A stretch of DNA of 64,000 nt from Haladaptatus salinisoli. Lineage in GTDB: Archaea > Halobacteriota > Halobacteria > Halobacteriales > Haladaptataceae. Shown in pieces: positions 30,765 to 48,914 of the stretch (its first letter is position 1; each line of letters opens with the position of its first letter). The DNA lies in assembly GCF_020614375.1 (NCBI RefSeq), contig NZ_CP085333.1, positions 124,001 to 188,000 on the forward strand, given 5' to 3'. A program made the position numbers and the translations under genes. Under the pieces are notes generated by a model. That model made no database searches. It worked only from the letters and a program-made list of their open reading frames with translations, and was not told the DNA's origin.

Positions 30765-31790
30765 CTACCGTTGTGAGTCACGGAGGATGAGCGGTTCGAT
30801 TGCGAGCGTCCGCTTGGCGACCGTCACAATCCGCAGGACGTAGGCCGCAAATATTAGAAATGGGAGAAGCGTAATCGTGAACGCTACACCGATCGTCCAC
30901 GTCATATTTGCCACGCCAAGCGTGCTCCCAGGAAACGTGCCTCCGTCAACGACCGTGAGCATGATTCCAGCGACGACCAACGCTGGAATTGCTGCATAGA
31001 GAATCATCTGTGAGAGCGTGACAAGCTCCCATTCGAAGTACAGTGTCTTGATGTGTTCACGAGCTGGGCCGAACAGACTGAGCGAAGTCTTCAAATCGTC
31101 CAGAAGGGCGGTCTCATTGTCGCCGAGACTGTCTTCGTATTCGTTGGCGATTCGTTCGACTTGGAAGATTTTCCAGCTATAGTTGAAGTTAAGCGCGGCG
31201 AACAGTACATCAAAGGTTCCGAACGATGCCCCGTCAAGTTGATCGTGAACCGTTTCGGCATTGCCGATGAGACTGTCGGTGAATTCGTCAACCTCTTCGC
31301 GGAGCTGGTCATTGTTACTTTCCGATAGGCCGTCGCGGAGCACTTTGGCCCGTTGTTCGGCGGTGTCGATGATTTCGCTAAGAAACGCTGACGGATCTGC
31401 CGGACTAGGCGATCCAATTAATTCCTCAGTATAATCCCGGAAGTCCATCGAGTTCTCCATTCGTTCACGTTGCTCGCCAAGCGGGCCGTTCTCTTGAGAG
31501 AGGACCAGCTGGCCGATGGTGATGACGATTGTGGTGCCGGTGATGATTGCTCCGATCATCGTCGAGAACATCGTCTCAATTGTGTCACCAGCCCTGAGTT
31601 GTGGTTGCAAGGGTTGTGGAAGGGAGGTGACCGCCACAACAAACACCACGAACACAGCCAGTGCCAAGACGGCAGTAACCTGAAGCCGGTTCGAAGCGAG
31701 GAGCAGCCAAATTTTGAGTCGGCTCTCGCCCGCTCGCTCACGCATCGTGTTAGCCGTACTGATGTCGGAAGTCTCCGTACTCTCGCTCAC
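30765..31790 (-). CDS. Haloarchaeal four-helix membrane protein of unknown function
   Basis: 341 residues from a GTG at 31790. Two N-terminal helices (~37-55 and ~73-95) are followed by a ~150-residue soluble helical region (116-255, acidic, with FLSEIIDTAEQRAKVLRDGL) and two C-terminal helices (~263-282 and ~298-325). The layout resembles an uncharacterised haloarchaeal membrane family. The GTG start overlaps the stop of the DUF4177 gene by four bases, so the pair is an operon. Confidence 0.65.
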   Translation of the reverse strand: MSESTETSDISTANTMRERAGESRLKIWLLLASNRLQVTAVLALAVFVVFVVAVTSLPQPLQPQLRAGDTIETMFSTMIGAIITGTTIVITIGQLVLSQENGPLGEQRERMENSMDFRDYTEELIGSPSPADPSAFLSEIIDTAEQRAKVLRDGLSESNNDQLREEVDEFTDSLIGNAETVHDQLDGASFGTFDVLFAALNFNYSWKIFQVERIANEYEDSLGDNETALLDDLKTSLSLFGPAREHIKTLYFEWELVTLSQMILYAAIPALVVAGIMLTVVDGGTFPGSTLGVANMTWTIGVAFTITLLPFLIFAAYVLRIVTVAKRTLAIEPLILRDSQR

Positions 31791-32011
31791 AGCGGGTCAC
31801 CCTCATCGATACTTGCACCTGCCTCGACAGGGCGTTTGAACACGAGGAATTTTGTTCCGCCCCCCGTATAGTCGATCGTTTCAATGAGTTCCCAGCCGTC
31901 CTTCCCGTGAGCATTCAACTCGGCTTGGGGGTCTTCCGCCTCTTTTTTGCTTTCGCCTCGGTGTGGTCTAAGTGTCTTATACTCCCAGTGACTTGATTGT
32001 GGTTGACTCAT
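31787..32011 (-). CDS. DUF4177 family protein
   Basis: 74 residues. WEYKTLRPHRGESK, LNAHGKDGWELIETIDYTGG and TKFLVFKRPV match the short DUF4177 fold (a beta-alpha domain). Function is unknown. It is translationally coupled to the membrane protein downstream (GTGA overlap). Confidence 0.75.
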   Translation of the reverse strand: MSQPQSSHWEYKTLRPHRGESKKEAEDPQAELNAHGKDGWELIETIDYTGGGTKFLVFKRPVEAGASIDEGDPL

Positions 32012-32124
32012 TTACGTTTGGATGGACGCACCTCCCGGCCCTAAGAATGGTGGTAGCACCAGTTAGTCCGTCTGACCGATCCATGCACTGTTTCAGCAGG
32101 TGATTTATCAGCTACTGATTCAGT

Positions 32125-32340
32125 GGCTCTGTAGTTTCGCTAGGCGGAGGTCGATTTGGTGTATTTTGGCCAGTATATCTCCACATTGATTGCGTGATTT
32201 TTAGCCTTGTCCAGCGGTTCCCTGGTTGGATTTCAGAAAAACCGAGAGACGGCAATCGATTCGTGACATATATCTCTCTACTGACTGTTTAAGAGTGATT
32301 TCTCGCTAATTGTAGCACCGTCTAGCGAAACTACAGAGTC
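32125..32340. mobile_element. 216-bp MITE with 23-bp terminal inverted repeats and 8-bp target duplication
   Basis: The left end GGCTCTGTAGTTTCGCTAGG and the right end (reverse complement GACTCTGTAGTTTCGCTAGA) pair over 23 bp with two mismatches. GATTCAGT directly flanks both sides (32117-32124 and 32341-32348), a clean 8-bp target duplication. The interior has no gene. An end beginning GGCTCTGT with an 8-bp duplication suggests an IS6-family parent (inference). The right duplication contains the stop codon of the adjacent gene. Confidence 0.85.
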
Positions 32341-32343
32341 GAT

Positions 32344-32859
32344 TCAGTCACTCCGCTGAACAGCCGCTATGAGTTGGCTCTTCGGAAGCCACTCGTCGGA
32401 GAGAATGGAGGCATCGTCTCGGTTTTCAAACTCTCGACGTTTTTCACGAAGACGATTTTCCAGCCCTTCGCGGCGGTCGTCATCTGCCCCAGTGTTTTCT
32501 ATGCCGCGTTTGAGAGAGTGTATCCCGTGTGCGAGCCGCATGAGCGGACGAGCTGGCGCAGAATTCTCGAAAAGAATCGCATCCTCGGTTTCCCGGGTGA
32601 CGTGTCCAACGAACGTTGTCGGTGTAGATCTATCCATGACACGGACCTTCTTTTCAGCCAACCACTCCGGGATCTGGACGAACAGATCGTTTTCGCTGAG
32701 GAGACCTAACAATTGCCACAGTTGACGAGTATCTTGTTCGTTGAGTAGCCCCCGTTCTCGGGCTTCGTTAAGGGATACACTGTAGTCATTGAGAGTCTCT
32801 GAGTGCCGCTCACGAGCGAATGATTCGTAGTCGGTGTGGTCGGTAATCAGATCCGTCAC
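32344..32859 (-). CDS. Hypothetical haloarchaeal protein
   Basis: 171 residues, soluble and highly charged, not recognised. The N-terminal half (FARERHSETLNDYSVSLNEA) is helical; the middle has VRVMDRSTPTTFVGHVTRET with a possible small beta unit; the C-terminal half is a Lys/Arg/Glu helix. Its TGA lies inside the MITE target duplication, so insertion occurred right at the 3' end and may have spared or slightly altered the C-terminus. Confidence 0.55.
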   Translation of the reverse strand: MTDLITDHTDYESFARERHSETLNDYSVSLNEARERGLLNEQDTRQLWQLLGLLSENDLFVQIPEWLAEKKVRVMDRSTPTTFVGHVTRETEDAILFENSAPARPLMRLAHGIHSLKRGIENTGADDDRREGLENRLREKRREFENRDDASILSDEWLPKSQLIAAVQRSD

Positions 32860-45920: not shown

Positions 45921-46889
45921 ATGTCTCGCATCGTCACGGTTGGAAGGAGGGCGGCGGTGCAAGCGCATGTTGAACGCTACAAACGGTTCGGCGAAATGAC
46001 CGTCTGTGGAGCTGTCGGACCTGCCGATGAATCACTTGACGATCTCGACGTACCAGTCTACGATTCACTAGCCCACGCGCTTTGCGACGACGTAGATGGG
46101 GTGGACATCTGCGGACCGGGCGCAGCCTACGACAACATGATCAATGCAGCTCGTGATGCGGGGATTCCAATTCGCTGTGATCCGCCATTCGCGCTTGATG
46201 AGACACAGTTCGATCGACTTGTCTCAGGAGCGTCGAACGAGAACGGATGGTTGATGGCGCACTCCCCCCACCGCTTCTCACGGCTGTACAGCCAACTTCG
46301 GTCAGACGTTGAAGCAGGTGCTATTGGAACAATTGGCGTTGCCAGAATCAAACGAACCGCACCCTTTGGCGGTCTCGGATGGAACACTTCGTATGACGGT
46401 GTCGCGGCCGCTACCGACCATGTGGAGGCGCTTTGCTCTGTTCTCGCTCATGATATTGACGTTCTTGATTGGACATTCGGTACTGTTGGGCGTGTCTTCG
46501 CTCGGGCTCGCTTTAGCGAACGATACGACCATGCACATGCTGTGCTCACATTCCAAGACGGTGGACGAGCGACCATCGAAACGACCTGGAGCAAGGAAGA
46601 AACTCCTTCACCACGCGTCAGTGTCGAGTATAGCGGCAATCACGGGCGTCTCAGTTTCAATGAGCGTGATGCATCAACTGCACTCCAAGAAAAGTCAAAG
46701 CCACTAAACGTAGATCCGCCGGAAAACGACTGTCGGGGTCGATTGCTGCGCGAGTTCATCACCCATATTCAGAACAGTGAAAAGCCCCCATTAGATATTA
46801 CTCCGATCAATGCCTCGCAAGTCACAATCGCTGTACGCCAGTCTGTCGACGAGCAGGTACCGATTACAATCGCTGAGGAATCGTTATGA
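45921..46889 (+). CDS. Divergent Gfo/Idh/MocA-fold protein lacking the EKP motif
   Basis: 322 residues from the ATG at 45921 (MSRIVTVGRRAAVQAHVERY). It keeps the family layout (Rossmann half, then TRFxxx-like C-terminal beta sheet ending in ITIAEESL), but the nucleotide-binding glycines are poorly kept (TVGRRAAV). The catalytic EKP is replaced by IRCDPPFAL. It is translationally coupled (ATGA) to a canonical paralogue downstream, so it may be a non-catalytic or altered partner. Confidence 0.75.
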   Translation: MSRIVTVGRRAAVQAHVERYKRFGEMTVCGAVGPADESLDDLDVPVYDSLAHALCDDVDGVDICGPGAAYDNMINAARDAGIPIRCDPPFALDETQFDRLVSGASNENGWLMAHSPHRFSRLYSQLRSDVEAGAIGTIGVARIKRTAPFGGLGWNTSYDGVAAATDHVEALCSVLAHDIDVLDWTFGTVGRVFARARFSERYDHAHAVLTFQDGGRATIETTWSKEETPSPRVSVEYSGNHGRLSFNERDASTALQEKSKPLNVDPPENDCRGRLLREFITHIQNSEKPPLDITPINASQVTIAVRQSVDEQVPITIAEESL

Positions 46890-47872
46890 CCGTTCCCATT
46901 GGTATTTGTTCGACCGCCCACGTTAACGCAGAGGTGTACGCAGCGCTTCTATCAAAATTACCAGAAGTCGACCTTGTTGGAATCTCCGAGCAGACGGCTG
47001 ATCAAGCGCGTAAACGAGCGAACGCCGTCGGTACATCGGCGATGTCGCATCGTGAACTGATGCAGATAGCCGAAGGGGTAGTTATCTGCTCGACAACTAC
47101 TGCTCACGACGAGTTAATCGACCTTGCACTTCAGCATAATGTTGCTTTTCTTTTAGAAAAACCAATCGCAACATCACTAGCGGAAGCGAAGTCAATACAC
47201 AAGCGGTGCGCCGAAAGCGACGTCATCACGGGAATGGCAATGCCGCTTCGTTATAGTCACCCGATGCGGCAACTCAAAGAGCGATACGAAGCAGGATCAG
47301 TCGGCGAACTCGTCGCAGTCTCGGGAGTAAACCGCGGTCGGATGCCGGGTGGATGGTTTGTTGATCCTGAACTGGCTGGTGGTGGAGCCATTGCCGACCA
47401 CACAGATCATATCGTCGATATTGTGCGGTGGATTACCGGTGAGGAGGTTCAAGAGGTGTACGCCGAAACGGATACCCGATTCTACGATCTTCCGGTTGAA
47501 GACGTGAATTTGTTGTCGATGACGCTCTCAAACGGCGCCTCATTCTTCCTCGATGGGTCGTGGAGCACGCCACAGAAGGACTCATTTTGGGGTGATGGTA
47601 GGGTCGAACTCGTAGGGACAAAATCAACGTTTTCGGCGGACTGCTTCGGTTACCGGTATACACGCGTCAAAGATACCGCTCACGGAAAGCACAATGAATC
47701 CATTTACTGGGGCGCTGACCCGAACAACGCCTTGTTACGAAATTTCGTCATGTCTATTCGTGGAGAGTCCGCCCCTGCAACGACCCTCGAAGATGCTGTG
47801 CAGACTGCTGCAGTTATTGATGCTGCGTACGAGTCAGTCGAACAGGGCCAACCAGTTACAGTCAAATATTAA
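46886..47872 (+). CDS. Gfo/Idh/MocA family oxidoreductase (a)
   Basis: 328 residues. The Rossmann N-terminus is IGICSTAHVNAEVYAALLSK, the catalytic Lys is in LLEKPIATS, and the substrate domain has GWFVDPELAGGGAIADHTDH and VDIVRWITGEEVQEVYAE. It oxidises a sugar or cyclitol hydroxyl with NAD(P). It shares near-identical long blocks with the convergent gene at 47901-48914. It overlaps the divergent Gfo gene by four bases. Confidence 0.87.
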   Translation: MTVPIGICSTAHVNAEVYAALLSKLPEVDLVGISEQTADQARKRANAVGTSAMSHRELMQIAEGVVICSTTTAHDELIDLALQHNVAFLLEKPIATSLAEAKSIHKRCAESDVITGMAMPLRYSHPMRQLKERYEAGSVGELVAVSGVNRGRMPGGWFVDPELAGGGAIADHTDHIVDIVRWITGEEVQEVYAETDTRFYDLPVEDVNLLSMTLSNGASFFLDGSWSTPQKDSFWGDGRVELVGTKSTFSADCFGYRYTRVKDTAHGKHNESIYWGADPNNALLRNFVMSIRGESAPATTLEDAVQTAAVIDAAYESVEQGQPVTVKY

Positions 47873-47900
47873 TCAATTTCCCGATATCATAGAAATTCTA

Positions 47901-48914
47901 TCAGCTTGTTGGAGCGGTGGTTTCGGCTGTTTCGACGGCGACAGATTCGGTTCGTTCCGCGGACTCATAAGCCGCTTCGACGACAGCAACGTCGTTGACG
48001 GCGTCTGCGCCCGTTTTAAGTGGTGGCCGATTCTCCGCAACGGCGTTGACAAAGTCGGCGACAAGCCCCTCGTCAGGATTTGACCCCCAGTACACCGACT
48101 GAATCCCAGGGGCACCAGTATCACGTGTTTGTTTTATTTTTTGGTCGAAGCAGTCAATGGAGACAACCCCTTCTGTACCAACAAGTCGAAGCGTCGCGTC
48201 CCCCCAGAAATCCCATTCGTTGGGTTTGCTCCACGACCCGTCGAGGACAAACTCCGTTCCGTCGGTGAGTGTCATCGATAGGAGGTTCACATCCTCGACA
48301 GAAATGTCGTGGAATCGAGTATCTGTTTCTGCGTATATTTCTTGGACCTCTTCACCAGTAATCCACCGCACAATATCGAGGATGTGTACTGAGTGGTCCA
48401 TCACTGCGCCACCGCCAGACGCTTCGCTGTCGACGAACCATCCACCAGGCATTTGTCCGCGATTCGTTCCACTGAGGAATTTCAGCTCTCCAAGCACACC
48501 ATTTTCCATTGCCGTTTTTGCGTTCCGGACTGGTTGGCTGAAGCGAAGTGGCATCGCCACACCAAGGTTGATATCTGCTTTTTGACAGATATTGACCATT
48601 TTCTGCGCTTCGGTAACTGTCGGTGCTAATGGTTTCTCGCAGAGAACATCAACGCCAGCGTCAGCAGCGCGTTCAACCCACGCGGCGTGATCAGTGTTCG
48701 TCGAACAGACGATGACGCCGTCTGCCTCGGCAAGCAACTCGTCAGGGTCGAGGTAATCGACGCCGTACTCATCAGCTTTTGCACGTGTGTTGTCGATGTG
48801 GTCACCGACATCTGTAACGCCGACAAACTCGGCGTTTGACCGATCAGTTAGCGAGGCGGCATAGGAGTCAGCATGAAGATGCGCGGTCGAACAAATACCG
48901 ATTCGTACAGTCAT
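47901..48914 (-). CDS. Gfo/Idh/MocA family oxidoreductase (b)
   Basis: 337 residues. IGICSTAHLHADSYAASL, LCEKPLAPT, GWFVDSEASGGGAVMDHSVH and LDIVRWITGEEVQEIYAE mark it as a close paralogue of the gene at 46886. The pair are convergent with 28 bases between stops. It is preceded on the same strand by another family member, overlapping by four bases. A short Thr/Ala-rich tail (VAVETAETTAPTS) is extra. Confidence 0.87.
   Translation of the reverse strand: MTVRIGICSTAHLHADSYAASLTDRSNAEFVGVTDVGDHIDNTRAKADEYGVDYLDPDELLAEADGVIVCSTNTDHAAWVERAADAGVDVLCEKPLAPTVTEAQKMVNICQKADINLGVAMPLRFSQPVRNAKTAMENGVLGELKFLSGTNRGQMPGGWFVDSEASGGGAVMDHSVHILDIVRWITGEEVQEIYAETDTRFHDISVEDVNLLSMTLTDGTEFVLDGSWSKPNEWDFWGDATLRLVGTEGVVSIDCFDQKIKQTRDTGAPGIQSVYWGSNPDEGLVADFVNAVAENRPPLKTGADAVNDVAVVEAAYESAERTESVAVETAETTAPTS

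Follow-up and report, generated by a model that had tools for sequence, protein, structure and literature searches.

In the 64-kb stretch of Haladaptatus salinisoli DNA analysed here (the window), a 216-bp non-coding element without a transposase gene (32125-32340) sits between two genes that run in the same direction, both on the minus strand. The first, hereafter the host gene (32344..32859), encodes a 171-aa protein for which Pfam and NCBIfam searches gave no match, and the gene downstream of it (31787..32011), of the DUF4177 / Sp36 family, starts 105 bp beyond the left of two direct repeats that flank the element. The element is bounded by 23-bp terminal inverted repeats (TIRs) that match at 21 of 23 positions, with mismatches at positions 2 and 20, as an earlier, sequence-only reading of this DNA had correctly described. 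The left end, GGCTCTGTAGTTTCGCTAGGCGG, lies at 32125-32147 on the plus strand, and the right end, on the minus strand at 32318..32340, is GACTCTGTAGTTTCGCTAGACGG when read inward (32340-32318). The same reading gave 216 bp as the length of the interior; this number holds for the whole element, with 170 bp between the 23-bp ends. No ORF of at least 50 aa overlaps the element. The octamer GATTCAGT is present on both sides as a perfect 8-bp duplication (32117-32124 and 32341-32348), and the TGA of the host gene (32344-32346, minus strand) does fall within the right copy, as previously noted.

The window was searched for 23-bp inverted repeats with up to two mismatches and spans of 60-1500 bp. The element was the sole such repeat flanked by a perfect 8-bp direct repeat, and three Markov-simulated windows contained no such inverted repeat, whatever the flank. 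A second inverted repeat of this kind in the window (47408-48386) has no flanking 8-bp repeat and was rejected as a transposon, being the product of two convergent paralogous genes. These genes (46886-47872, plus strand, and 47901-48914, minus strand), with the N-termini MTVPIGICSTAH and MTVRIGICSTAH, give rise to a ~37-bp near-perfect inverted repeat.

Searched for in the genome collection, the end RCTCTGTAGTTTCGCTAG occurs in 35 stretches, almost all of them from haloarchaea; viral contigs gave no match to the MITE end. Most of these stretches are the ends of a single insertion sequence (IS) of 925-927 bp, many with perfect 8-bp duplications (14 of 18 full-length copies). The other four full-length copies (L113, L067, L003 and L031) have no matching octamers at their flanks, suggesting that IS copies recombined with each other or that the flanks were rearranged. 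The 926-bp IS encodes a 273-aa DDE transposase, annotated as IS5 family in plasmid records, that matched NCBIfam NF033579 (IS5) with an E value of 3e-71 (240 bits against a cut-off of 140) and also PF01609 DDE_Tnp_1 (E 4e-22). The MITE and IS ends are identical over 18-25 bp with at most one mismatch. Over its first 33 bp (32125-32157 in the window) the MITE matches the right end of the IS at 82-91%, and its own right end matches the left end of the IS over 19-23 bp; past these ends, no significant similarity was detected between the MITE and IS interiors.

Full-length relatives of the window element, 215-217 bp long, were found in other genera, and all five MITEs of the family are flanked by perfect 8-bp duplications of differing sequence. 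The Natrinema pallidum copy is 217 bp with the duplication ATGTCCTT (the copy in G086 is the same and probably represents the same genome), a plasmid copy of archaeon DL31 is 215 bp with CATATTTT, and genome G035 carries two 217-bp copies that are 100% identical to each other, with CTTCACTC and CTATTGTT. These relatives are 75-79% identical to the window element over the whole length, ends and interior included. With TIRs shared with an autonomous element, a duplication of the same length as that of the helper and copies at unrelated sites, the window element is a MITE with true target duplications, in agreement with the sequence-only reading. G035 also contains three identical 926-bp ISs, each with a different perfect duplication (GATTCTTA, AAAATTTC and TACACCTG); the presence of identical copies of the MITE together with identical copies of the IS makes recent mobility of both probable in this genome. 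A partial MITE copy is present in archaeon YIM A00010 (L029), with the same junction in G382. Among 394 genomes drawn from the order, a match of any kind was present in 15, and matches longer than ~35 bp were restricted to five (G000, the window genome; G008, Haladaptatus sp. DYF46; G035; G086; G382). We also observed an unannotated 865-bp IS copy (L123 372-1236), with a perfect duplication TAGATCTT and an apparent internal deletion, on plasmid phalar01 (CP002989.1) of archaeon DL31, ~10 kb from the MITE.

The window genome (5.0 Mb in 8 contigs) belongs to the same genus as Haladaptatus sp. DYF46 and contains the element and its ends once. The sequence-only reading had made its case depend on the inverted repeats occurring elsewhere; they are abundant in other haloarchaea and absent from the rest of their own genome. 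A search of this genome for IS5_2 transposases gave none over the cut-off, the IS5_2 relatives present being broken and below it, and a search for IS6 transposases gave no intact copy and one 58-residue remnant, also below the cut-off. Because no helper was found in its own genome, the window copy is probably immobile now.

Haladaptatus sp. DYF46 carries a remnant of the element against the end of the same gene, at the same position and in the same orientation, from which the left 48 bp have been lost. The remnant is 88.7% identical to the window element, is accompanied by the octamer GATTTAGT and has the same variant right end, GACTCTG, found in none of the other full-length MITEs. Because site, orientation and variant end are all shared, the insertion is older than the separation of the window and DYF46 loci, or else passed between the species together with its flank. 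The earlier reading had taken the intact ends as a sign of recent insertion, a view contradicted by this same-site remnant in a different species. A second, MITE-less copy of the gene in DYF46 shares only the right flank and a single octamer, GATTTACT. In DNA, this copy is 82% identical to the window gene and the MITE-bearing copy 74%. Because the MITE-less copy is the closer one, duplication together with recombination or excision appears to have taken part in the history of the gene. The left-flank gene sits elsewhere in DYF46 (C27:44263), and a strict empty site with both flanks, sought by the left flank and by the host gene, was not found. The DYF46 MITE copy is near a contig end. On contig C27 (L046 / G008 C27:1-1404), copies of the 171-aa gene lie near both ends, one of them frameshifted and without a MITE, and a cold-shock-like gene is present at the contig start, as near the window gene; this contig is possibly circular or has a repeat at its end.

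The host gene ends RSD-stop in the window. In DYF46, where the stop position is unchanged, the endings are RSD-stop and RGE-stop for the two copies, and the G006 homologue ends RSE-stop. As the stop position is also kept in MITE-less homologues, the stop inside the octamer is ancestral, and the host gene has retained it because the duplication rebuilt it. We think it improbable that the MITE has been kept in two species as a 3´ UTR or terminator of the 171-aa gene or as the promoter region of the next gene, which would make it a domesticated archaeal MITE.

The sequence-only reading had proposed an IS6-like transposase as the mobiliser, and the 8-bp duplication is indeed also the IS6 length. 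The motif GGCTCTGT, which we take to resemble IS6 ends, could be counted in favour of the same proposal, as could the many IS6 elements described in haloarchaea (PMC7986276). However, every checked autonomous carrier of these ends encodes an IS5-family enzyme, no helper with an IS6-family transposase was found, and the window genome itself holds only the short IS6 remnant. Since the IS that bears these ends has a transposase of the IS5 family, the proposal is unsupported; within the scope of the present tests it is refuted, and it retains very little probability. A structured RNA or terminator hairpin that mimics a MITE is just as hard to credit. The element folded as single-stranded DNA is more stable than shuffled sequences (z -4.1), but this stability comes largely from the inverted ends, an Rfam search gave no match, and in the consensus fold the covariation term is small, with weak interior covariation among four sequences. 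Copies at unrelated sites with perfect duplications further indicate mobility.

A different question is whether the window and DYF46 copies were inserted separately into the same octamer, in which case the window insertion could be recent. The element is 88.7% identical between the two genomes, more than the 74% of the adjacent gene overall, a difference that speaks for separate arrivals. The last 60 bp of the window gene and the MITE-bearing DYF46 gene are, however, 88% identical, like the element, and the copies agree in exact position, orientation and the GACTCTG right end. Because the duplications of this MITE family are diverse, without sequence specificity, a second insertion at exactly this base is unlikely, and we give this explanation only a small chance of being correct.

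From these comparisons we infer, with high confidence, that the window element is a non-autonomous MITE mobilised in trans by a 926-bp haloarchaeal IS that shares its ends and supplies an IS5-family transposase. The transposase would bind the shared ends of ~23-33 bp, excise the element and insert it at a target cleaved with an 8-bp stagger, and repair of the target would generate the 8-bp duplication. At this locus the target octamer contained the stop of the 171-aa gene, and repair would have rebuilt it, so that the coding sequence stayed whole after the insertion. The insertion took place before the window locus and its DYF46 counterpart separated. Counting against this reading are the lack of an intact helper or a further matching end in the window genome, the search for a strict empty site, which found none, the closer match of the MITE-less DYF46 gene, and the position of the DYF46 MITE near a contig end.

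The nearest named relative found is ISH19 of Haloarcula marismortui, which likewise has an IS5-family DDE transposase. The transposase of the 926-bp IS (P0001) is 57.5% identical to the annotated ISH19 transposase, but the two ISs are distinct, and the 926-bp IS ends were not found around the ISH19 gene in the stretch read; unlike the ISH19 family, the window element has no transposase. The Haloquadratum HqIRS families, ISH2/ISH8 and MITEHsal2 resemble the window MITE in being short and without a transposase, with transposon-related ends and a duplication of helper length. Haloquadratum MITEs are reported to have moved, in some cases even though the functional helper is gone (PMC3119063), and ISH2 is mobilised by ISH8 in Halobacterium (PMC10264941). 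By their descriptions, these elements differ from the window MITE in length and helper, ISH2 being 531 bp with 10-bp duplications and MITEHsal2 411-413 bp (PMC10264941). The window MITE is the same kind of element as known haloarchaeal MITEs, with another helper, and is ordinary in kind. No named version of this family was found in the open literature, a search that did not include ISfinder.

For the window, these results correct the helper to IS5 rather than IS6 and the age of the insertion to old rather than recent, and the locus illustrates how a gene can escape damage when the target duplication restores its stop codon. The analysis adds a small family of 215-217-bp MITEs for which an IS5-family helper is identified and which spans at least four haloarchaeal lineages. 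G035, with its identical MITE and IS copies, would be a natural place for testing trans-mobilisation in archaea.
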